Origin: Artocarpus heterophyllus
Taxonomy: Eukaryota; Streptophyta; Magnoliopsida; Rosales; Moraceae
Direction: 5' to 3'
Length of the DNA: 64,000 nt
Assembly (NCBI GenBank): GCA_025403435.1
Contig: CM046345.1
Location: forward strand, 11,164,235-11,228,234
Both the position numbers and the translations under genes were made by a program. The notes beneath the pieces are model-generated. The model did no database searches. It had not been told where the DNA came from and worked only from the letters and a program-made list of their open reading frames with translations. Shown piece after piece: positions 10,801 through 64,000 of the stretch (positions are counted from its first letter, which is position 1; every line of letters begins with the position of its first letter).

Positions 10801-11053
10801 AGGTAACCTATGACCATCATCATATGCTCTTTCATAGGTGTCCCTAGTCTCTACTCGTAGAGGAGAAGCTTCTGAAGAGCCCCTTGTCGCTTTGTCAAGG
10901 TTTAGCCTCTAAACATGTCATCAAGCTTATCCAAGATCTGTTGAGCAGTATCATAATCTTCATGTTGAGCTTGTAGCATGTTATTCTTGCTAGCCATGAT
11001 ATAGCAGCAGGTCTGATCATCTGCATCATTCTAACAATCATACGCTTGGATTT
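7819..11053 (-). pseudogene. Copia B, 3' part: decayed gag-pol
   Basis: Minus-strand copia sequence closely related to copia A and C but heavily mutated. The recognisable order from high to low coordinate is gag C-terminus with a good CCHC knuckle (CFFCGKYRHIKKNCKDF, about 10.44 kb), protease (DTWVIDSKATNH, DSG changed to DSK), integrase (9654-9845 and 8986-9426) and RT (8252-8560, containing YEDDILL for the usual YVDDILL). RNase H and the 3' LTR are missing because copia A begins at 7818. Gag is interrupted at 11053 by element T and resumes at 19256. Confidence 0.85.
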
Positions 11054-13025
11054 TGTAATGCCCCTATATGGGGGTTAACAGTTTTTAATGAGATAAAATA
11101 AAAATAAATAATAAAAGTAAAACCTTAAAAATAAAATTTGCCCGGGACTTAAATGAAAACTCTCAACTCAAAAATAAAAATATAAACGATAATTAAACCA
11201 CAGTTTAATGTAGCACCTTAAATTTAATAATATAAACTGTTGTCATCATCATTTTAACCCTCAACACATTGTAATACAGTCACAGAAAGTAATAATTGAT
11301 GCTTACATTATCATGAAGAACATTCTCAACGATTGAAGCAGTCCCAATGTAATATAGTTACATCACTTCCTCAACTATATTTCTCGTAGCCACCTCACAC
11401 TTAGTGAGTCCTGAAAAGATATAAACATAAGGGAATGAGCGACACTATGCTCAGTAGAGAAAACCATTACTCACCTTTAGGTTTTTATCATTACCACATT
11501 AAAACCTGCATCGTTAGTAAGTCACATCATATTCCAGATTATGAGGTTTATTATGATCACATCTTATGGATACCGTAGTTAATCATTACCAAGTGTCATA
11601 ATTACACATTTATATAAATATTACCAATCATCATTGTTCCTAGGTATCCATGTTAAATTGAGTATCACTCAACTCATCGAAACCCAAATGGGCGCACTTG
11701 ATCACCCTATAAACATTCCAAGGGTGTTCCGGTGAGGGGACATCAAGCCCCGAGTCCTCACCAAATCGATTCCTGTACAGTGTGTTCTGGGACTTTCAAC
11801 CCAAGGAAGCGTCATCGCCTTCCCCCTACTTTACCTTTTAGGGTATTCATGCCCAAGGACGTAACCGTCGCCCTTTTCATGTCTCACAATTTCTCTATAT
11901 TAAATCATTATTAATAGAGTTAATTTTCCTAACCATGCTTCTCAATTTATAACATGTGTCAATTCATTATGTTCCTCGCCGTACAATACAAGACGAGTCC
12001 ATGTCATAGTTTCATATGTGATACACATATAATATCAGTTCAACATAGATATATATATATTGCGGCAAAACAATCAATTTTAATTCTATAAAAACCTCAC
12101 AAAAGATGAGTAATAGAATCCCTACCTTTTAAGCTTATCAACAGTCTCTTAATCCTGGAATCAATTAACGTTAGCTCCATACTCCCTTGATCCTAAGGCG
12201 TGCATAAGGACAATTAAAACTAAAGCACAACATACAACTACATTCATAAAATTTATTTTAATTTAATCTTAGAATTTCAAGAAATAACCACTGCCCATAG
12301 AGGTATTATAAAGTTTAACAATATAAATTTTCTGTCTAGGGCATATACACTTAGACTTCATACATATGCTCCAAAATAGCAACAAAAATATACTTAGGTT
12401 TAAGAACGCAAATTTGAATAATCCTTTAGTATAAAAGAAAATTTATAAATGAAAGACTAAATTTGTTCATAAGATTCTAACCTCGGATTATGGTTAGTTG
12501 GAAGCTTGAAATGGCTTCAAACAGGTTCCTTTACTTCGGTATGACTGAAATTCTTACTCAAATGGAGGTGATGGTGGCTGATTTTTATGGCTGCCTTGAA
12601 GAAGTTCTCTAAGTATTTTGCTTCAGCAAAGAAATGAGAAGAAGAGTGTGGGAACCGTGGAAGAGAAAGGAAGAAAAGATGAAGTCTTTGAAGAGAAGTG
12701 ATAGAAACAATTATAGAGGAGACATGTTGAAGCATGTCACGGAGGAAATAAAGAAAATGAGGTTCAAGAGTAGTTGGAAAAGATATCCTTATGTCTCATC
12801 TAAAGACTTTAACACACATAATGCCAATATGACATTTTTGAGATTTATTAGAAGTTCTAAGGCTTTTTAGTAATCATACTAAATAAATATAGGAGAATTT
12901 TAGAAAACTTAAAAATAGATAAAAATAAATATTATAAAATAAATTTAAATGAAGCAATTTTTTTTTATACATTAAAAATTAATTTAATTACCTCAATACC
13001 CGTTAGGAGAATAACGGGTGTCACA
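11054..13025 (-). repeat. Gypsy T 3' LTR, 1972 bp
   Basis: In + orientation it starts TGTAATGCCCC and ends GGGTGTCACA. It is nearly identical to 17284-19255, with differences mainly transitions. The short ORFs at 11732-11914 and 12634-12870 recur in the other LTR copy and are not considered genes. Confidence 0.92.
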
Positions 13026-13041
13026 GCTCTACCCCCCTTAA
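13026..13041 (-). other. Gypsy T polypurine tract
   Basis: The minus strand reads TAAGGGGGGTAGAGC and abuts the 3' LTR. The preceding AAATTTCGAGGACG stretch is typical of Tekay-like gypsy elements. Confidence 0.75.
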
Positions 13042-13979
13042 AGAAATTTCGTCCTCGAAATTTCAATTCTAGCAATACTAGTAAAAATTATGATTCCACT
13101 ATGATTCCAATTCCGAGTCTAAACCGTTAATGTTGTATGTCCTCCAAATTTAAGTTATCGTATCTCCACTTATTTACTTGCATAATAAATCTTACTCCTA
13201 AATCCCTCAATAAGAGTATTTCTGATAAGTTTCAACTTATAACACCGTATAATAGTCTAAGAATCTGATCAGGCCTACATATTGACCATATCATGATTCC
13301 AGTCCTTCATTGTCCATGGACTGTGATTTACAATCACATTTAAGGAGATTGCCAGAGAAATTTTATATACTTCATCTTTAGGTTCCTTTTCCTTTTTGAG
13401 TAAGGAAAAGTCAAATATATTTGATTTCATACCTCAACTAATAAACTAAAACATAATCATAAAACATATATCACAAACACTTATATTCAAAACCATACAT
13501 TAAACTTATTCATAGAGATATTAAACGGAATCTCTGGTTGCAAACATACCCGACATATTTTTCATTAAACAGCTATCCTCATGACACAAACATTCAACCC
13601 AAATAATATACTCATATTTCATATGGAATATCCCCATAACTGACTCTGGTACTTCCACATAATATTAACAGAATATTACACATTACAAACATGATACGGA
13701 TATGTTTCGAGAGTACAAGGCACTCCGTATACCAGCTATCCATATCATGCATGCTTATAGGATACAAAAACATCGATAAACAAAAGATCGGACCTTAAGA
13801 AGGATGCGTTTCGAGAGCATCAAGTACTCCGTATCCAGCCATCCCGGCATTAGGCTCAATGAATCTAAAAGATTTAACAACGACGTACCACAAGAAACAC
13901 AGAATACAAGGCAAACGGTTATTCGTAACACACGAAATACGGACACACATGCCTACATGCCAAAGATAAAACAAAAAGA
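13042..13979 (-). other. Gypsy T 3' noncoding interior
   Basis: 938 bp between the LOG-like ORF stop and the PPT. No ORF of note. It contains a diverged direct repeat of about 45 bp (13697-13745 and 13804-13850) sharing TTTCGAGAG and CTCCGTAT. Confidence 0.5.
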
Positions 13980-14669
13980 TTACAGATGGAGATTCAAATC
14001 AATTGGCCGCTCCCGGCTTTCCCTTTCCCATTCAAGCTTGGATGTTGCAGTGTCGGATTCTGGATGTATGATTTGCATTTTATCTATCAATTCCTCAGCT
14101 ATTGAAGCAGTAACAAAGATTTGTCTCTCCGATTCTGTAGTGATGTTTTCTTCCACAGCGTAATCTAGAAATTTCAAAAGACCGTCATAAAAACCCTTTA
14201 CGTTCAGCAGTCCCAAAGGTTTGGAATAAAAGCCCAACAATTGCCCACAAGCAACTATAAATATTTCCTCAAGAGTACCTAGACCACCAGGTAATGCTAT
14301 AAAAGCATCAGAATTATAGATTATGTCTTTAAAATTTTTAGGGATACTCCTGACTCCTTCTCCCTTACCTATGGCTTCCTTACAAAGGTTTCCTTCAACT
14401 GGAATATGAGGCCAAATTCTTACATCAGTAGCGTCGCTAGACCTAGCTGCTAGTGCCATATTTACCATCATTTTTATACTACCACCCCCATAGATTATGT
14501 TAATCTTCTTGCGTGCTAGGACTTGCCCTAAGTGATTTGCAGCTTCTAAATAAGCTTTATCTTTTCCAAGGCTGGAACCACAAAAGACACAGATATTCTT
14601 TATTTTCTTCGTGGACTGGGAGGTAGACATATTTGGTTTATAGAAGTGGTTGCTTAATGTCTGCTCCAC
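13980..14669 (-). CDS. LOG-like protein (PGGxGTxxE Rossmann family) carried by gypsy T
   Basis: A 229-aa ORF of the plant LOG family, enzymes that release active cytokinin bases from riboside 5'-monophosphates in the cytosol. Features in order: NICVFCGSS (about residues 25-33), IIYGGGS (about 59-65, normally YGGGSxGLMG but here GGGSIKMM), DAFIALPGGLGTLEE (about 122-136) and KPLGLLN (about 151-157). Length is normal. The conserved M-x-x-R-K helix before SDAF, which holds catalytic Arg/Lys in known LOGs, is replaced by IPKNFKDII, so activity is doubtful. The extreme C-terminus PIDLNLHL fits a DLNxxL/LxLxL EAR-type motif. Plant LOG genes usually have several introns; this copy has none, implying capture through mRNA. 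Start at 14669 gives the longest frame; Met14 (14630) is an alternative. Family assignment is firm, function is not. Confidence 0.85.
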   Translation of the reverse strand: MEQTLSNHFYKPNMSTSQSTKKIKNICVFCGSSLGKDKAYLEAANHLGQVLARKKINIIYGGGSIKMMVNMALAARSSDATDVRIWPHIPVEGNLCKEAIGKGEGVRSIPKNFKDIIYNSDAFIALPGGLGTLEEIFIVACGQLLGFYSKPLGLLNVKGFYDGLLKFLDYAVEENITTESERQIFVTASIAEELIDKMQIIHPESDTATSKLEWERESRERPIDLNLHL

Positions 14670-15273
14670 TTAGACTTCGGGTTCTACATGAGATTTTAAA
14701 GATGAGAAATATACAAAAAGGGCTAAAGAGATAGACGAGTAGGTAATGAAAAGGTAATCCAAAGATTTAAACAAAATCTTGTGCGGATAAGAAAGTAAGA
14801 TAAGGTGATTGATAGTTTACAAAAAATCTGATTCGCTTTTTGAAAAAGATTAGACTCTAATTGTATAACTTTTGACAATTGAGAACAATTTGACAGAAGA
14901 CCCTCTTGACACAACTGTAGACTTTTTGACAAATATACACCAAGTCTAAAAATTTAATATAAACGACAAATACTGTAGAACTTTTGAAATTTGAGACACA
15001 AATCTTGAAATATCTGGATAAGCTTTTCAAAATTCAAACATATTACTGTATCGTATGTAACGTGTCTGATAAGATAATATATTTTATTATATATATATTT
15101 AAGAAAATCATAAATTAAATAAGATATTAACACTTACTGTATCAATCTAATAATCACAATTATTTCAAACACAAAAGAAAATATTCTGAGTAAAAGAAAA
15201 ACACAAACTGTTGAACATCAGCTAAAACTGCTTCAAATAAGCAAAGACTAAATAACCTTTATAGTGCGATGAC

Positions 15274-15795
15274 TTATTCCCCATCCAGTTTTCTTATGGC
15301 TTGGCAAACAGGATCTAGAAATACCATATTCCTGAGGCGTTGTCTTTCTGTATAAAATTTAGGCCAGAGTTTAAAAATAGCTCCTTGAACATATCCACTA
15401 GGGTGACCGTGAAGAGGAGGATGGATGCTATCCAAGTTCTCCTTTGAAAGTCCATCCCTACAAAACCTTATTTTATCCTCTCTATTCGTAGACATATAAC
15501 CAGGTGAAGTACATTTACCGTTACAATTTTGTCTTCCACATTTGTTACAAGTGACCACGATGGCACGAGCTCTTCTTTTCATTACACTACGACTGGTACC
15601 TGTTCCTGGTAAACCGACATCTTGACTAAAGTCACTCGGACGGATTTTCCCCTCTATTAACATTCTCACATCACAAGGGATGCCAAAACGCATAAGAATC
15701 CACAACCGAGTAATTCTAGCCTTGTATTTCTTTCTAAGAATCTTTTGGGAGAGTGATGGGAAATACTTTCTCAGATGTTGGTACTTTGGGTCCAT
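15274..15795 (-). CDS. Small basic Cys-rich protein in gypsy T, resembling viral nucleic-acid-binding proteins
   Basis: An intact 173-aa ORF, Lys/Arg-rich, first in the order of element T. Its centre has GTSRSVMKRRARAI followed by CNKCGRQNCNGKC (C-x2-C-x4-C-x3-C) and then a NREDKIRFCRDG stretch. A basic Arg-rich patch, a small zinc-binding Cys cluster and an N-x-x-K-[IV]-x-x-F/C-x-x-x-G tail follow the plan of the small cysteine-rich nucleic-acid-binding proteins of carla-like flexuous RNA viruses (Viral_NABP family), some of which suppress RNA silencing. The order and spacing fit, but I judged this by eye. The C-terminal 45 residues (GAIFKLWPKFY region) match nothing I know. Alternatives are a cellular zinc protein or a remnant nucleocapsid; the Cys cluster is not CCHC. 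Start ATG at 15795 is the only good one. Confidence 0.5.
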   Translation of the reverse strand: MDPKYQHLRKYFPSLSQKILRKKYKARITRLWILMRFGIPCDVRMLIEGKIRPSDFSQDVGLPGTGTSRSVMKRRARAIVVTCNKCGRQNCNGKCTSPGYMSTNREDKIRFCRDGLSKENLDSIHPPLHGHPSGYVQGAIFKLWPKFYTERQRLRNMVFLDPVCQAIRKLDGE

Positions 15796-17261
15796 GATGA
15801 GATGAAAGAAGAGTAAATAGAAAGAAAAAATTAAGATAGTAAATTGCAGAATCCTAGAATTCCTTCTTCTTTTAGAGAAAAAGAAGAATTTTTAATGAAA
15901 AAGAAGAGGATTTGCGATTTAAAGAGAAAATAACAAATTAAGAGAGAAAAAGTGAACTCGGAGAAATAAGCTCCTATGCACAGTAAACGTATATGTAAAC
16001 AATGATTAAACCACTGTATATGACACGTATAGAAACCACGTGGGAGAGATAGTGTGAATCAAACTGATTTAAGATTTGAACTAGGCCCAAATGTTCTTAG
16101 TTGAAAATGGTCAGGTTGTTTCGGGCCTTAACACATTTAGAACAAGTTAAATAACAAACATAAAATTGAAAACCAATTTGTATGAATCTTAAACCCAATT
16201 CAAAGCCCACTATAGATAAAGTTAATTATGAACAACAAATCTAATTTAACGACAACAAGGATCTTCCTGAATGATATTTAAAATCATTTCATAACAACAT
16301 AATCTTCCAGCAACTCGAATAATTTTGTTTTAATCAAAACCTTATTGAACAATACATACACCCATATGTTATTCATAATACTTAACATCTATCAATGGAT
16401 TCATCATCATTGCTACCAAGGGTTTAGAATGTGACTAACCTTGAAATCAATACGATTTACGTCTTTCAACGTAGACCATATCAACGAACAAAGACACTTG
16501 ATGTTACTACTTAAGAACATCTACAATCCTCACAATTCTACTTATACAATATATAATTTCCTCATATAACAAAACCTTAGGTAACCAAAAGATTCACTGA
16601 TACACTTAAATACAATGTACGTAACGAAATATTCCAATTTTGAGATTCATGCATTCTAGACTTTACACAGTCTCAACAGACCAAAAGTCTAACATTTATC
16701 TCTCTCAAAATTCAATACCATGATTCCCAACTTATATCATATTCCTCAAATATATAGAACTTTTAAGAAAAGATATTGATACTTATGTGCTCCATCGAAT
16801 CCATACATAATCATTACTTAGGTTTGAATCAATTACGAAAAATTTGGCATATCTATGTCAAACTTTAAAATCAATAAATCAAGCCTTATATTTCTTATTG
16901 TTTTTCACGAGACAAAAGGCTTTTAAATCCTCGTATCTATACGAATTCTCATCGTTTATACGAATTAGATATGCTTATAGATCCAAATATTATACGAATC
17001 TCTCATAAGCATTCTACTTATAAACTCATTCCATATAATTATCATTCCCTCATAACTATTAATACTTTCCTTCTATATAATTATCGTACTCATATAACTA
17101 TTAATATTTTCATTCTATGGCCTTTCCATGTTACATCCTTCTAGACTGTATAAATCAATGTGAAGGTTCATTTTGATGATGACAATGAAAATTCAGCTTC
17201 AAAACCATCTCAAAAATATATTTTTTTAAAGTGGTGCTACACTCCCTAGGTTAACCGAACC
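15796..17261 (-). other. Gypsy T 5' leader (noncoding)
   Basis: About 1.47 kb of AT-rich sequence between PBS and the first ORF. No ORF above background. The part just upstream of the Cys-rich ORF (15830-15960) is very purine-rich on the + strand. It presumably holds packaging and untranslated sequence. Confidence 0.45.
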
Positions 17262-17277
17262 TAGGCTCTGATACCAA
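17262..17277 (-). other. Gypsy T primer binding site (tRNA-iMet)
   Basis: The minus strand reads TTGGTATCAGAGCCTA, a perfect match to the usual plant tRNA-iMet primer site, six bases from the LTR edge. Confidence 0.85.
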
Positions 17278-17283
17278 AAATTC

Positions 17284-19255
17284 TGTAACGCCCCTATATG
17301 GGGGTTAACAGTTTTTAATGAGATAAAATAAAAATAAATAATAAAAGTAAAACCTTAAAAATAAAATTTGCCCGGGACTTAAATGAAAACTCTCAACTCA
17401 AAAATAAAAATATAAACGATAATTAAACCACAGTTTAATGTAGCACCTTAAATTTAATAATATAAACTGTTGTCATCATCATTTTAACCCTCAACACATT
17501 GTAATACAGTCACAGAAAGTAACAATTGATGCTTACATTATCATGAAGAGCATTCTCAACGATTGAAGCAGTCCCAATGTAATATAGTTACATCACTTCC
17601 TCAACTATATTTCTCGTAGCCACCTCACACTTAGTGAGTCCTGAAAAGATATAAACATAAGGGAATGAGCGACACTATGCTCAGTAGAGAAAACCATTAC
17701 TCACCTTTAGGTTTTTATCATTACCACATTAAAACCTGCATGGTTAGTAAGTCACATCATATTCTAGATTATGAGGTTTATTATGATCACATCTTATGGA
17801 TACCGTAGTTAATCATTACCAAGTGTCATAATTACACATTTATATAAATATTACCAATCATCATTGTTCCTAGGTATCCATGTTAAATTGAGTATCACTC
17901 AACTCATCGAAACCCAAATGGGCGCACTTGATCACCCTATAAACATTCCAAGGGTGTTCCGGTGAGGGGACATCAAGCCCCGAGTCCTCACCAAATCGAT
18001 TCCTGTACAGTGTGTTCTGGGACTTTCAACCCAAGGAAGCGTCATCGCCTTCCCCCTACTTTACCTTTTAGGGTATTCATGCCCAAGGACGTAACCGTCG
18101 CCCTTTTCATGTCTCACAATTTCTCTATATTAAATCATTATTAATAGAGTTAATTTTCCTAACCATGCTTCTCAATTTATAACATGTGTCAATTCATTAT
18201 GTTCCTCGCCGTACAATACAAGACGAGTCCATGTCATAGTTTCATATGTGATACACATATAATATCAGTTCAACATAGATATATATATATTGCGGCAAAA
18301 CAATCAATTTTAATTCTATAAAAACCTCACAAAAGATGAGTAATAGAATCCCTACCTTTCAAGCTTATCAACAGTCTCTTAATCCTGGAATCAATTAACG
18401 TTAGCTCCATACTCCCTTGATCCTAAGGCGTGCATAAGGACAATTAAAACTAAAGCACAACATACAACTACATTCATAAAATTTATTTTAATTTAATCTT
18501 AGAATTTCAAGAAATAACCACTGCCCATAGAGGTATTATAAAGTTTAACAATATAAATTTTCTGTCTAGGGCATATACACTTAGACTTCATACATATGCT
18601 CCAAAATAGCAACAAAAATATACTTAGGTTTAAGAACGCAAATTTGAATAATCCTTTAGTATAAAAGAAAATTTATAAATGAAAGACTAAATTTGTTCAT
18701 AAGATTCTAACCTCGGATTATGGTTAGTTGGAAGCTTGAAATGGCTTCAAACAGGTTCCTTTACTTCGGTATGACTGAAATTCTTACTCAAATGGAGGTG
18801 ATGGTGGCTGATTTTTATGGCTGCCTTGAAGAAGTTCTCTAAGTATTTTGCTTCAGCAAAGAAATGAGAAGAAGAGTGTGGGAACCGTGGAAGAGAAAGG
18901 AAGAAAAGATGAAGTCTTTGAAGAGAAGTGATAGAAACAATTATAGAGGAGACATGTTGAAGCATGTCACGGAGGAAATAAAGAAAATAAGGTTCAAGAG
19001 TAGTTGGAAAAGATATCCTTATGTCTCATCTAAAGACTTTAACACACATAATGCCAATATGACATTTTTGAGATTTATTAGAAGTTCTAAGGCTTTTTAG
19101 TAATCATACTAAATAAATATAGGAGAATTTTAGAAAACTTAAAAATAGATAAAAATAAATATTATAAAATAAATTTAAATGAAGCAATTTTTTTTTATAC
19201 ATTAAAAATTAATTTAATTACCTCAATACCCGTTAGGAGAATAACGGGTGTCACA
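17284..19255 (-). repeat. Gypsy T 5' LTR, 1972 bp
   Basis: Runs TGTAACGCCCC to GGGTGTCACA in + orientation and is followed by target-site duplication GATTT. It is the promoter LTR for the two cargo ORFs, both of which lie downstream on the minus strand. Confidence 0.92.
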
Positions 19256-20565
19256 GATTTGTTCGTTAGTGGATTTGCCAATACGCGCAGGAGGACTCAG
19301 TATTGTTAGCACAAAATTCAGTGTCTTGAAAGATAGGATGATACTTAGGTTTCGTTTCCAATCATTATAATTCTTGCTAGTTAATGTGTTTTTGTCAAGT
19401 ATTGAAAAAGCATTTTTATACATTTTAATCTACAATAAAGAATCATATACCAAACATAAGCAAATATTCCTTTACAATTTAGTAAGATAACACAAATAAG
19501 TAAGCATACAATGTGTTTATTTGTCAAAACCTTGAAAAAACCACAACCTTACAACAATAATCTCTATCCAAAATTTAACAAGCTGCCTTAGGGAGACTTG
19601 CCAAATTCAATTAGGAATACGGATCCCCTTCGATTAATATATACCATCCAAGACTTATTTGATCTAGCATATATTAATAATCGTTTTCTTTAGCCATTAC
19701 CTTTATTAACAAAGCTCCTAGGGAGTTTAATCTTGAGTGTATAGCCATTAACTTAAGATTAATAAATTTAATTTTGAGTGTATTACCATCATTTCAACTA
19801 CTTTATCTATGGTTTATAATCGACACCTTGGGGGAACAACGACAAACCTTGCTAAAACAAATTATTCTCTCGGAGATCCAACCCAGCACATGATGTAATC
19901 CCTTCCTGGGGTCAGAATCACCATGTGTTACCTATGGACTAACGATGGAGGCCTTAGGTCCTCTCTTCGAGAATCTTCTCCTATTCAATATTTTAAAAGG
20001 TCAAGGTTTTATGTTAATATGCATGAACAAGTTTTAATGAGTGACACTCCTTATTCTACATGGTATGTTATCAACATACATGATAAAACAAATTATAATG
20101 CAGACAAGCAACGCAACATACAAAGCTACAAGCAATATAATAAATAGCCGCAATATCATGGTTCCATCCTAGAGAAAAGAAAATAAAGATTGCATAAGAT
20201 TAATTGAAACATATATCGATTCTTTATCTTGTATCTTTTTGTTGTATCTTTCTTTTGTGACATCCGTCTTCAATTTTTGAATCTCATATAGATCAAAAAA
20301 ATTATTTTTTTGGTTCTCATGAAATTTCATTTTCTCAAAATTGTCTCAAAAAACAAAAATAAAAACTACACCAAAACATACACTGTTTAAAAAAAAACAG
20401 CTTTGCCTACTACCGGCCTGTCGATCTGTGACCATCGGCCTATTGTTCTGCGACCATTAGCCTATCGATATTGATAACTTGCTAGCTGACCGACGTTGAA
20501 CCAACATTTTTCTAAACTTTTGTAAAAATAATTTTTAAGCAGTTTTTTTTTAATTTATTTTGCAT
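19256..20565 (-). pseudogene. Copia B, 5' part: gag N-terminus and leader
   Basis: Minus-strand continuation of copia B beyond gypsy T. Gag starts at 19423 (MYKNAFSILDKNTL, NYNDWKRNLSIIL) and is cut by T after STNEQI; copia A continues there with QAYDR, which confirms the join. The leader to about 20565 aligns with the copia A leader, including a weak microrepeat island (20411-20500). Similarity stops near 20565, where host-type sequence begins. No 5' LTR or PBS is present, so this end is truncated. Confidence 0.75.
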
Positions 20566-25642: not shown

Positions 25643-26362
25643 CTAGTGGTCTGATCTTAGATCACTCTGATATCTGCCCAACATTCCTATAGCAAATGCA
25701 ATGTCAGGTCTTGTGCAAACCTGAGCATACATAAGACTTCCAACAGCTGAAGCATATGGAATATTGCGCATTTGTTCTCTTTCAAGGTCATTTTTTGGGC
25801 ACTGATTCAAATTGAATCGGTCACCCTTCACAATGAGAGCTATACTCGGTGAACAATTTTTTATCCGAAATCTCTCCAAAACTTTGTTGATATAGGCCTC
25901 TTGAGACAGACCCAAAGTGCCTTTATATCTATATCTGTGTATCTTAATGCCTATAACGAAGGATGTATCACCCATATCCTTCATGTCAAAGTTTTTAGAG
26001 AGGAATTGTTTTACCTCATGTAGCATACCTTTGTCGTTGGTTGCAAGTAGAATGTCATCCACATATAGAACCAAGAAACAAATTTTACTCTCACTGACCT
26101 TTTGGTATATGCATCGATCCATGATGTTCTCTACAAATCCAAATGAAGAGATGACATCATGAAATTTCAAATACCACTGACGGGAGGCCTGCTTCAACCC
26201 ATATATGGATTTCTTAAGCTTACATACCAACTGCTCACCATTACTAGAGGAGAATCCTTCTAGTTGTTTCATATAAACCTCTTCCTCTAGTTCACCATTG
26301 AGAAATGCCGTTTTCACATCCATCTGTTGCAACTCTAAGTCAAAATGAGCAACAAGTGCCAA
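25643..26362 (-). pseudogene. Copia D reverse transcriptase segment
   Basis: 239 aa on the minus strand with [34 protein letters not shown], catalytic YVDDILLA, SQEAYINKVLERF and YASAVGSLMYAQVCTRPDIA. These are RVT_2 hallmarks. The upstream RT start (IGCKWVYKAKKDS and KARLVAKGF) is present at 26.4-26.55 kb but broken by TAG in place of a Gln codon. Confidence 0.85.
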
Positions 26363-26605
26363 GATAATGCGGAGAGAATCTTTCTTGGATATAGGAGAAA
26401 AGGTCTCCTTGTAGTCGATTCCTTCTTTCTAAGTGAATCCTTTGGCGACGAGTCTTGCCTTATATCTTTCGATGTTGCTCAATGAGTCTTTCTTCGCTTT
26501 ATAGACCCATTTACACCCTATGGCTTTTGCACTATCAGGCAACTTGACAAGATCCCAGACTCCATTGGATGCCATAGAATCCATCTCATCCTTCATTGCA
26601 TCGTA

Positions 26606-28777
26606 CTAAAGTTTCGATTCTTGGCAACTTATGGCTTGTGAAAACATTTTGGGATCATTTTTGGCTCCAATGTTATAGTCTGATTCTTGCAGATACACAA
26701 CATAATCACTAGAAATTGTCGATTTCCTTTCTTTAGTAGATCTCCTTAATGTTGGTTTAACATTTTCCTGAGGAATCTGTTGTCCAACTTGTTGCTCGAC
26801 TGTTTTCAGTGGTTCTTGAGCAACTTGACCTTCTAGATTATTATCAGCAATTTGTGGAACCTCAATGATCGGTTGCACAACACTCGGTTGAACTATAGGA
26901 GTGCTATGAACTATGATCAACCGATCACTTGATGTAGATGGTTGAGCTTCAGTATGATCTCTTTCAGAAACTATGTTCCAAAATTGATCGCTCCCACTAA
27001 TCAAGTCATTCTCAAGAAACTTGGCGTTCCTTGATTCCACAAATCTAGTGCTGTGAGTTGGATAGTAGAATCTATATCCTTTGGACCTTTCGGCATATCC
27101 AACGAAATACCCACTAATGGTCCTCGGATCTAGCTTCTTCTCTTGTGGGTTGTATACTCTTATTTCAGACGGACATCCCCAAATGCGTATATGTCGCAAA
27201 CTCGATTTCCAACCCTTCCATAACTCAAATGGCATCCTTGGAACAGTCTTAGTCGGAACCCGGTTTAATATATACACAGCTGTCTTAAGAGCTTCAGTCC
27301 ACAAGGACTTAGGCAGGTTGGAGTTACTCTGCATGCTCCTCACCATGTCCATTAATGTTCGGTTTCTTCTTTCTGCTACACCATTTTGATCCGGAGAACC
27401 AGGCATGGTGTATTGGGCAACTATCCCATGCTCTTGAAGAAAACTCGCAAATGGACCTTGAGCTTGTCCATCCTCAGTGTATCTACCATAATATTCTCCA
27501 CCTCTATCTGTCATCACGATCTTTATTTGCTTTCCGCATTGTTTCTCTACTTCAGCCTTAAAAACTTTAAAGGCGTCTAATGCTTCGTCCTTTGTATGAA
27601 GCAAGTAGAGATACATGTACCGTGAGTAATCATCTATGAAAGAGATGAAGTATCTCGGACCATATGAGTCCATTACTGGACTACAAATATCTAAATGTAT
27701 GATTTCTAATATTTCTGAACTCCTCTTGGCACCTTTCTTAGACTTGTTGGTTAGCTTTCCCTTAATGTAACCTACACAAGTCTCGAAGTCAGTAAAATCC
27801 AAAGTACTAAGTACTCCGTCAGTCACTAACCTCTTGATTCTCTCAATGGAGATATGTCCTAATCTCCGATGCCACAACATAGAGGAATCCTCATTTATAA
27901 CACAACGTTTAATGCCAGATTGAACATGCATAGCAGTATGATGTGGTTCATTTTGCAAATTAATTGAGAAAAGACCATCAGACAAAATACCATTCCCAAC
28001 AAGATCAGATTTATAAAATAAACTGAAATATTTGTCTGAAAAGGTAAAGGAATATCCCAAAGGTACAAGTCTAGAAACAGAAATTAAGTTCCTAGAAAAG
28101 TTTGGAACATAAAATGTCTTATCCAATTCCAAAGTAAAACCACTACTTAAAACTAAGGTGCATGTTCCGATGGCTTCCACATGTGAACGCATCTTGTTTC
28201 CTGAAGAGATGCTTAGCTCACTTCCCACTGGCTTCCTTAGTTTTCGCATACCCTGCAAGGTATTCAAAACATGGATTGTAGATCCAGAATCAATCCACCA
28301 TGTGTTATAAACAACATCAACCATATTAGATTCATAACAAACCAATGAGATTGGATTACCTTTCTTCTCAAGCCAACTCTGAAATTTTGTGCAATCCTTC
28401 TTCATGTGTCCCTTCTTTTTACAGAAGAAACACTTGGATTCCTTCTTAATGATAGCTTTGGGAGGTATTTTACTCTTCCCTTTGTCCTTGGCTTGATATT
28501 GGTCTTGATTCTGATTCTTTCCTCTCGTGGTTGTCAGTGCAGTTTCACCCATTTCCATTACAAGTCGCCCTTCTTCTTGAGTACACATGGTCAAAAGTTC
28601 ATTTATTGACCATTTCTCTTTATGTGTATTGTAGGAAATCTTAAAGGGCCCATATTGTTTTGGAAGGGTGTTCAGAATGTAGTGCACCAAGAAAGATTCA
28701 GACATATCCACCTCAAGGTTCTTTAATTGAGCTGCTATGTCCCTCATCTCCATGATGTGCTCACGCACACCTTTCAC
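26606..28777 (-). pseudogene. Copia D gag C-terminus, protease and integrase
   Basis: 723-aa open frame on the minus strand. Domains: gag C-terminus (1-110), CCHC knuckle CFFCKKKGHMKKDC (116-129), aspartic protease WWIDSGSTIH (DSG at 163-165), GAG pre-integrase with LWHRRLGH (301-308), integrase core with D363 (HLDICSP), D424 (MTDRGGEY) and E469 (PDQNGVAERRNRT), then the C-terminal copia region (GYFVGYAERSKGYRFYYP). The D-to-E spacing is about nine residues longer than the usual DD35E. Continuous over 2.1 kb, but cut off from gag N-terminus and RT by stops. Confidence 0.88.
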
Positions 28778-29207
28778 ACTAGTGAGCCTTAAGGATCAGA
28801 ACCTCATGATTAGGGTGTTGGCAAGTGCCTTGTCTGAAATTTCAAATTGCTCATCAATAGCCTTCAGTAATGCCCGGACTTTCTCATACTGTTCGACAGA
28901 ACCACGTATGCCAGCAGAGACTTTAGTCTTTATGAACATGACGCTAAGGCGATTAGATCGCTCCCAATGTTCATAAAGAGCAATCTCATCCTGAGTGCTG
29001 GTTTCAGTAATTACGGGCTCATCTTTCTATAGCATAATCAATGTCCATCCACCCCAAGTGAAGGAAAATTCTCTCCTTCCAGACCTTATAGTTATCCCAT
29101 TTCAGCTCAGGGATATCATATCGAACATCAGAGAAATTCACAGGTTGTATGACTGCATAATTAAAATAAACATGCTTATGATCCAAAATATTGAGGCTAA
29201 TAAACAT
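28778..29207 (-). pseudogene. Copia D gag N-terminal segment, broken
   Basis: Frame from 29207 contains NFSDVRYDIPELKWDNYKVW and HLGWMDIDYAI, a copia gag start. After a frameshift near 29.02 kb gag continues (EHWERSNRLSVMFIKTKVS, EQYEKVRALLKAIDEQF) and meets TGA just before the 26606-28777 frame. The Met at 29207 may not be the true start. Confidence 0.75.
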
Positions 29208-62766: not shown

Positions 62767-63813
62767 TTAACTCCTCAGCACCACTTTGCTTTGAGGTTTA
62801 AAGTCGTCCATGTAACTTTCCTCAAGGAAAGTTGCATTAGTTGAAACCACGACTTTATTTTCCTTTGGGTTATAAGAATAACCCCCTTTAGTCCCTTTTG
62901 GATATCCTACAAACATGCAAACTTCTGAACATGCTTCCAACTTATTTGGATCCTTAAACAGGACATGAGCCGGACATCCCCATATGCGAATATGGTTTAA
63001 GGATGTCTTCTTACTTGTCCACAACTCGTGAGGAGTTTTAGGGAACGATTTTGAAGGCACATTGTTCAAAAGATAACATGCGGTTTGTAGTGCATATCCC
63101 CAAAAGGATAAAGGCAATGATGAATAACTCATCATGGACCTAATCATGTCTAACAAAGTCTTATTCCTTCTCTCTGCTATGCCATTATATTGCGGAGTGC
63201 CCGGTGCAGTCAAATGGGATAAAATCCCATTTTCTAATAAGTGTCCCAAGAACTCATTCGAAAGGTATTCTCCACATCGATCGGATCGAAGTGGCTTTAT
63301 GGGTCTACCCAATTTCTTTTCCACTTCGGCCCGAAACTCCCGGAACTTGTCAAAAATTTCGCTTTTATGGTGCATCAAGTACACATACCTATATCTTAAG
63401 TAATCGTCAATAAAAGTGACGAAGTACTCATACCCTCCTCGCACCTGAATGTTCATCGGTCCGCAAACATCACTATGCACAAGTTTTAGAACCCCTTCCG
63501 CCCTATTGACCTTAGACACGAATGGTCTTTTGGTCATTTTACCCTCCAAACAAGACTCACATTGAGGTATAGATTTCACCTTTAAGTGACTTAAAGGTCC
63601 ATCCCTTACCAACCTTTGAATCCTATTCAGGTTAATATGGCCAAGGTGCAAATGCCAAAGATAAGTCTTATTAGAGTGATAAGTTTTAAGTCTTTTTGAG
63701 TCATTATCATTTATCTCAGCATTAAGCAATAAGTCCATCTTAGGTTTGATAAAATATAGATTATTTTGCATCCATCCAGAACAGATAAAAGATTTGTTTT
63801 TACGAATCACCAC
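62767..63813 (-). pseudogene. Copia C pre-integrase and integrase
   Basis: 348 aa. Pre-integrase [17 protein letters not shown] (about 52-68) and [14 protein letters not shown], then the integrase core with [18 protein letters not shown] (usually SDRGGEY) and [15 protein letters not shown] (usually PQQNG); all three acidic residues remain. Ends with the copia tail [20 protein letters not shown]. The best-preserved of the related A/B/C copies but separated from RT and protease by breaks. Confidence 0.87.
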
Positions 63814-64000
63814 TTTTTCATTAAAGATACCACGTAGGAGTCTTTAAATAAAGAAGATACAGAAATTAAATTCCTTTTAAATTTAGAAACATAAAAACAA
63901 TCTCGCAAAATTAAATTCCTATAATTATCAAAATAAAGATGGACATCTCCCACTGCTTCTGCTGAGACCAAGGATCCATCGCCCATCTGAAGCGTTAAGT
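63814..64000 (-). pseudogene. Copia C protease C-terminal part (continues beyond window)
   Basis: The minus strand reads LTLQMGDGSLVSAEAVG, then LRDCFYVSKFKRNLISVSSL, the copia protease tail, ending in TGA before the integrase frame. Gag and the 5' LTR lie outside. Confidence 0.7.

Follow-up and report, generated by a model that had tools for sequence, protein, structure and literature searches.

The DNA analyzed here, a 64,000-nucleotide stretch of contig CM046345.1 from Artocarpus heterophyllus (positions 11,164,235 to 11,228,234; hereafter the window), contains a complete long terminal repeat (LTR) retrotransposon on the minus strand at positions 11054-19255. The element has the structural hallmarks of an LTR retrotransposon, with paired TG...CA LTRs, a primer binding site (PBS), a polypurine tract (PPT), and a target-site duplication (Table 1). 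The two LTRs align without gaps and differ at 7 sites (6 transitions and 1 transversion; Kimura two-parameter distance, K2P, 0.0036). Together with the GATTT duplication, this agrees with the conclusion of an earlier note on this DNA that the element moved recently. The PBS starts seven bases past the 5' LTR in element sense (17276-17265) and is presumably complementary to the 3' end of the initiator Met-tRNA.

The interior of the element contains two intact open reading frames (ORFs) in series, both in the sense orientation. ORF1 encodes a protein similar to the viral nucleic-acid-binding proteins (NABPs), and ORF2 encodes a protein with the fold of the LONELY GUY (LOG) phosphoribohydrolases; every other interior frame is 127 amino acids or shorter. 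Besides ORF1 and ORF2, 14 stop-to-stop frames reach at least 55 amino acids; a Pfam scan (E ≤ 0.1) of 10 of them gave no match, and ORF1 and ORF2 match no gag or pol family in Pfam. The gag and pol genes of an autonomous LTR retrotransposon were thus not found, nor was an ORF with a gag domain as in TR-GAG elements, since the Pfam matches include no gag family. The earlier note had likewise seen two complete sense-strand ORFs and no retrotransposon protein between the PBS and the PPT. The gypsy-type label of the earlier note is a tentative one, given from the look of the LTRs, PBS, and PPT, as an element without pol gives no reverse transcriptase (RT) or integrase phylogeny by which the Ty3/gypsy group and the Tekay lineage are recognized.

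Table 1. Features of the LTR retrotransposon and its target site, in window coordinates.
Feature	Position	Strand	Description
5' LTR	17284..19255	-	1972 bp, TGTGACACCC...GTTACA
3' LTR	11054..13025	-	1972 bp, ending in ATTACA
PBS	17265..17276	-	TGGTATCAGAGC
ORF1	15274..15795	- (element sense strand)	173 aa, NABP-like, intact
Spacer, ORF1 to ORF2	14631..15273	-	non-coding; served as neutral reference
ORF2	13980..14630	- (element sense strand)	216 aa, LOG-fold, intact
PPT	13026..13039	-	AAGGGGGGTAGAGC; adjoins 3' LTR
Target-site duplication, left copy	11049..11053	.	GATTT
Target-site duplication, right copy	19256..19260	.	GATTT

A search of the genome for other copies, as proposed in the earlier note, identified 2,701 exact matches to the 31-base junction between the LTR and the PBS, compared with 0 for a reversed-pattern control, and 19 further matches when the next base after the PBS was altered. 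If most junctions represent full-length copies of 8.2 kb each, the family would account for about 22 Mb of DNA, or ~2% of the 985-Mb genome. With each ORF as the query, the best 150 matches all showed 99-100% identity, and a first look gave 6,116 candidates for LOG and 5,820 for NABP. To date the insertions, ten 10-kb copies were drawn from the best LOG matches, seven of which could be measured with both LTRs entire. Their LTR K2P distances range from 0 to 0.0015, four of the seven have no substitutions, and all seven are flanked by a perfect 5-bp target-site duplication. The element is thus a very abundant and recently active LTR retrotransposon. Two of the ten fetched copies (L017 and L022) have an additional stretch of ~0.38 kb in the LTR, so that subfamilies exist.

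The ORFs are intact in most copies. A sample that avoids selection by coding sequence was taken from the top 40 matches to the 5' untranslated region (UTR); it comprises 38 copies after removal of the window copy and one further locus. Both ORFs are intact in 28 of the 38, NABP in 32, LOG in 33, and neither in one. A second sample, consisting of each tenth of 100 listed LTR-PBS junctions, contains NABP at all ten sites, and it is intact at full length in seven of the eight copies that are fully visible; L136 has an early stop, and L128 and L137 are open as far as they are visible, being clipped by the stretch edge. When copies were chosen by the other ORF, LOG is intact in 14 of 15 copies in register (5 of 20 were dropped as out of register), and NABP in 10 of 13 (7 of 20 dropped).

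Selection within the recent burst was inferred from 37 copies (the truncated L100 was dropped), with the mutations seen in the inter-ORF spacer providing the spectrum for the expected ratios of nonsynonymous (N) to synonymous (S) changes. Variants present in two or more of the 37 copies were considered shared. The shared variants in NABP are 8 N and 13 S, corresponding to a dN/dS ratio (ω) of 0.19 (p=0.0002), and those in LOG are 9 N and 8 S (ω 0.39, p=0.047). With the cross-selected copies added, the shared-variant ω is 0.20 for NABP (n=50) and 0.45 for LOG (n=52). LOG singletons are near neutral, with ω values of 0.91 and 1.07. Within the burst, NABP thus shows good evidence of selection, and that for LOG is borderline.

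Older relatives of the gene pair are present in the same genome. A query with a LOG protein from Populus (P0021) gave 150 listed matches to uninterrupted LOG sequences of 46-56% identity that fall into several groups, and a query with a LOG from Xanthoceras (P0113) again gave 150 listed matches of the uninterrupted type. The matches listed for these two queries were uninterrupted element-type copies, and intron-bearing host LOG genes were not picked out. The 1.8 kb upstream of LOG was read at four of these loci, and NABP was found there at all four, in the same order as in the window and at a similar spacing; the start-to-start distance of the ORFs is about 1.16-1.20 kb in the sister copies and in a family of ~50% protein identity. 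Three of the four loci are 89-95% identical to the window element in DNA, and the fourth (L113/L120) represents a separate family, in which NABP is 53% identical to that of the window and 78% identical to the public protein P0002, and LOG is about 50% identical. In a tree of 41 LOG proteins, the 12 sequences from this genome all fall to the same side of a branch supported at 100/99.

For deep comparisons by the NG86 method, ω for LOG between families is 0.17-0.29 at dS values of 0.75-2.0 (five pairs), and it is 0.35 between the window LOG and L119, which is of the same type. NABP pieces from the window and L113 give an ω of 0.14 at a dS of 2.5, which is near saturation, and those from the window and the three nearer loci give 0.12-0.28. 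Since the pair occurs in sister families and the deep ω values are low, the comparisons indicate that the NABP and LOG pair is old and has been constrained along the element lineages. A separate observation concerns the synonymous distances to the window at the three nearer loci. At the L114/L117 locus, dS is larger for LOG (0.41) than for NABP (0.17), which hints that a LOG segment may have been swapped between element lineages; at the other two loci, the LOG and NABP values are 0.34 versus 0.23 and 0.10 versus 0.08.

ORF1 contains a basic KRRAR arm followed by a putative zinc finger, C-x2-C-x4-C-x3-C, and its N- and C-terminal parts are predicted to be helical. Among 50 copies, 49 or 50 retain each of the four cysteines, and the same holds for the key residues of the arm and the finger. 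A sequence search identified 14 public relatives, and a profile search identified 856 at E ≤ 10 among 2,377 candidates. The best 120 of these, as listed, are mostly ~180 amino acids long, some of them represent clusters of up to 566 members, and their named hosts comprise at least six plant genera (Xanthoceras, Populus, Acer, Rhamnella, Hibiscus, and Orobanche). In the NABP alignment A3, 65 of 72 sequences match Carla_C4 (PF01623) and 64 of 72 match Viral_NABP (PF05515) at E ≤ 0.01, and the window ORF1 alone scores 13.7 bits against PF05515, which is below the cut-off of 23. The finger of ORF1 does not have the carlavirus-type spacing, C-x2-C-x12-C-x4-C, which is described beside an arginine-rich motif in one carlavirus (PMC10141686). 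The structural model has a pLDDT of 74 and a pTM of 0.42. Sequence matches between NABP and PDB entries were rejected as chance-level, a scan of IMG/VR with a 15-protein NABP alignment gave 31 pattern matches but zero confirmed relatives, and no NABP relatives were found in phage records. For a public NABP-like protein (P0148) and a public LOG-like protein (P0058), the longest contig is 8723 bases in both cases, possibly one and the same contig, which hints that the two are located together in another plant.

ORF2 matches PF03641 with 75.3 bits. The juxtaposition of a virus-like nucleic-acid-binding protein and a LOG homolog pointed out in the earlier note is supported. The protein contains the motif PGGLGTLEE, and a Foldseek search with its model (pLDDT 75.7) gave 2a33, an Arabidopsis LOG, as the best structure (E 2.6e-17; 40% identity in the structural alignment). 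It thus has the LOG fold and the PGGxGTxxE signature, and the PGGxGT and EE positions checked are unchanged throughout the sample (52 of 52 copies); the phosphate-binding motif is retained. In CgLOG, catalysis is proposed to depend on Arg99 and Glu122. The prenyl site appears to be built from Met96, His97, Lys100, Glu125, and Trp129 and is located at the interface of the dimer, where the partner subunit contributes Glu125 and Trp129 (PMC4979012). In ORF2 of the window, the corresponding residues are Ile96, Pro97, Asn99, Phe100, Ile125, and Gly129. Asn99, Phe100, and Gly129 are present in all 52 copies, none of which restores a prenyl-site residue; Glu122 is kept. The catalytic pair of a LOG enzyme is therefore incomplete. 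All relatives in the LOG alignment A4 but P0015, a public copy of the element, have Arg99 (40 of 41), and the relatives also vary at positions 97, 100, and 125. The 11 other LOG copies read from the genome form a graded series in the active site, and nine of them retain Arg99 (not L119 and L127). Both Arg99 and Trp129 are found in the three copies of the L120 type, those of the L117 and L121 types have Arg99 (His in L127) without Trp129, and the active site of L119 resembles that of the window ORF2. Judged from these residues, the active site of the element LOGs seems to have been lost stepwise.

Two further observations concern the rest of the window. The 3' UTR of the element contains two imperfect direct repeats of 33 nt (79%; 13698-13730 and 13802-13834). 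An RNA element at these repeats was rejected, as folding compared with shuffled sequences was not significant (z -1.17) and Rfam gave no match. Outside the element, long frames that by eye resemble gag-pol of the Ty1/copia type are located at 25643-28795 (-) and 62767-63843 (-).

Taken together, we consider it probable (roughly 0.6) that the element is a non-autonomous LTR retrotransposon of high copy number and recent activity that is mobilized in trans, and that its two ORFs are long-standing element genes under selection. Mobilization in trans is suggested because gag and pol were not detected and the element has moved recently. The substitution patterns in the aligned copies and families show the signature of purifying selection on the ORFs. 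The earlier note had left the choice between recent capture and maintenance of the cargo; maintenance is favored because of the copy number, the intactness of most copies, the sister families, and ω values well below 1, and recent capture is not. None of the outcomes that the note had named as contrary to its proposal, namely a single insertion, broken ORFs in all other copies, or gag/pol in the interior, was encountered in the searches made.

Several results weigh against this reading. NABP is broken at all four old sister loci, by stops in L113 and by frame-shifting indels in L114-L116, and the sister ω values for NABP are consequently derived from pieces. Within the burst, the p-value for LOG is about 0.05, the NABP singletons, with ω values of 0.40 and 0.55, do not provide a clean neutral class, and most Fisher tests that compare shared with singleton variants fall short of significance (NABP, p 0.27 and 0.049; LOG, p 0.22 and 0.11). 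Among 50 copies, 4 have a stop in common at codon 138 of NABP, and such truncated copies may still have been mobilized. Comparison of the LOG of the window with the nearest other type gives an ω of 0.49-0.59 at a dS of 0.34-0.41, four pairs of L117-type LOGs give 0.37-0.48, and four pairs of the L120 and L121 types give 0.77-1.12, the last of which is as expected from decay after insertion. The search with a changed base after the PBS revealed no partner element, as all ten loci excised from the 19 matches belong to the same family. Finally, the ORF1 model matched no viral fold at E ≤ 0.001.

Under the reading of a trans-mobilized element with its own genes, gag, protease, RT, and integrase would arrive in trans from a partner, and the two ORFs would be accessory genes that aid the spread of the element. 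The leading suggestion for ORF1, though at less than even odds, is a nucleic-acid-binding factor for counter-defense, or for transcription or RNA handling, that sustains expression of the element RNA. It would then act for the element as carlavirus cysteine-rich proteins (CRPs) do for their virus; in chrysanthemum virus B, the CRP serves both in pathogenicity and as a suppressor of silencing (PMC10141686), and a role as a transcription factor has reportedly been described, to judge from a title in the reference list of that paper. For ORF2, the predicted loss of cytokinin synthesis would leave a nucleotide-binding LOG-fold protein, and it is conceivable, if rather doubtful, that it acts via nucleotide binding; that it may act by pairing with host LOG subunits is equally doubtful.

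The alternative that best survives is that ORF1 replaces gag, as a nucleocapsid-like RNA binder that favors the element RNA in the particles of the partner. The conserved basic arm and C4 finger would fit such a function, as would the purifying selection on ORF1, which is the stronger of the two ORFs, but its homology is to viral NABPs, no gag family was matched, and its helical model is of low overall confidence; we regard this as improbable. Less probable still is that ORF2 is a dominant-negative LOG, which would dimerize with host LOG, spoil the shared active site, and shift hormone or nucleotide levels. The fold is retained while Arg99 and the two residues that CgLOG receives from the neighboring subunit are lost (PMC4979012); against this, the identity to the Arabidopsis LOG is only 40% in the structural alignment.

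Hardly different in probability from a dominant-negative LOG is that the genes are hitch-hiking cargo, captured genes that a single successful master copy chanced to carry, and intact merely because the burst is young. The nearly identical LTRs, the neutral appearance of the LOG singletons, and the ω values of 0.77-1.12 within older families would be expected from such a history. It does not account for the recurrence of the pair in a family of ~50% protein identity, the deep ω values of 0.12-0.29, or the ω of 0.19 for the shared NABP variants. We give even less credence to a hormone-manipulating element, in which ORF2 activates cytokinin and boosts cell division at the sites of element expression. 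The LOG fold and motif are preserved, and Arg99 is retained in most sister LOGs, in one family along with Trp129. In the window family, all six substitutions listed above stand against it, and alanine substitutions at the AMP-binding and catalytic residues of CgLOG, Ser19 excepted, nearly abolish activity (PMC4979012). Because the catalytic arginine and the prenyl pocket are lost in 52 of 52 copies, cytokinin activation by ORF2 appears unlikely in the window family; ORF2 as an ordinary cytokinin enzyme is disfavored, and the role in hormone metabolism implied by the earlier note is not upheld for this family. A recent one-off capture is rejected in view of the copy number, the sister families, and the ω values.

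In the usual view, non-autonomous retrotransposons are coding-poor passengers, and non-autonomous LTR elements such as LARD and TR-GAG are already known. The element described here is without detectable gag and pol, yet it retains two protein genes that appear to be selected while present in thousands of copies. Possibly, though with less than even odds, it represents a distinct, satellite-like class of plant LTR retrotransposons that have discarded the replication genes, depend on a partner, and have kept an old two-gene accessory module, a viral-type NABP for counter-defense and a LOG-fold pseudoenzyme, as fitness genes. The NABP-like family, which occurs in many-member clusters of several eudicots, would then serve as a marker for such elements in many plants, and the carlavirus NABPs could even derive from it or have given rise to it. 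If the genes do act in trans-mobilization or against silencing, the element would provide a natural system for studying the needs of a retrotransposon parasite. Some gene models annotated as "LOG" and "carlavirus NABP" in plants may be transposon genes. In the open-licence PMC literature, searched for retrotransposons with a carlavirus NABP or with a LOG, phosphoribohydrolase, or lysine decarboxylase, this pair was not reported among the matches listed; elements with two conserved genes and no gag/pol under other names were not searched for.

Among known systems, the LARD elements are similar in their LTRs, PBS, PPT, target-site duplication, absence of gag/pol, and presumed mobilization in trans, but they are described as being without conserved coding capacity, whereas the window element has two ORFs that are conserved across families. 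The VANC proteins of VANDAL, a DNA transposon, are anti-silencing proteins and offer an analogy for possible counter-silencing by a transposon-encoded protein, although the transposon type differs and the protein is unrelated. Gene-capturing elements and additional ORFs are also known already (PMC7264820, PMC11963269). Plant LTR retrotransposons with additional ORFs, such as Retand with TRP28, resemble the window element in the extra ORFs, their suspected nucleic-acid-binding or regulatory role, and recent activity, but there, 53 of 63 clusters retain all gag/pol domains, and most of the additional ORFs lie in antisense and most are TRP28 (PMC11963269, PMC7264820). The window element instead has no detectable gag/pol, and both of its ORFs are in the sense orientation, one being viral-like and the other enzyme-like. 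Maize Bs1 and the gene-capturing elements of rice and sorghum also contain non-retroviral sense genes between their LTRs, but these are described as host-derived (PMC7264820, PMC3726574), whereas the window pair is old and common to sister families. ORF1 shares with the carlavirus CRP/NABP (PF01623, PF05515) the Arg-rich basic motif beside a C4 finger (PMC10141686), and most members of its protein family match these Pfam entries; it differs in its length (~173-182 amino acids in the family), its conserved C-terminal part, the finger spacing, and its location in a retrotransposon. Similarly, ORF2 shares the fold, the PGGxGTxxE motif, and Glu122 with the LONELY GUY phosphoribohydrolases (2a33, 1ydh, and 5its), but differs from them in lacking the catalytic Arg99 and the prenyl-pocket residues, and in being an uninterrupted ORF in a high-copy element.

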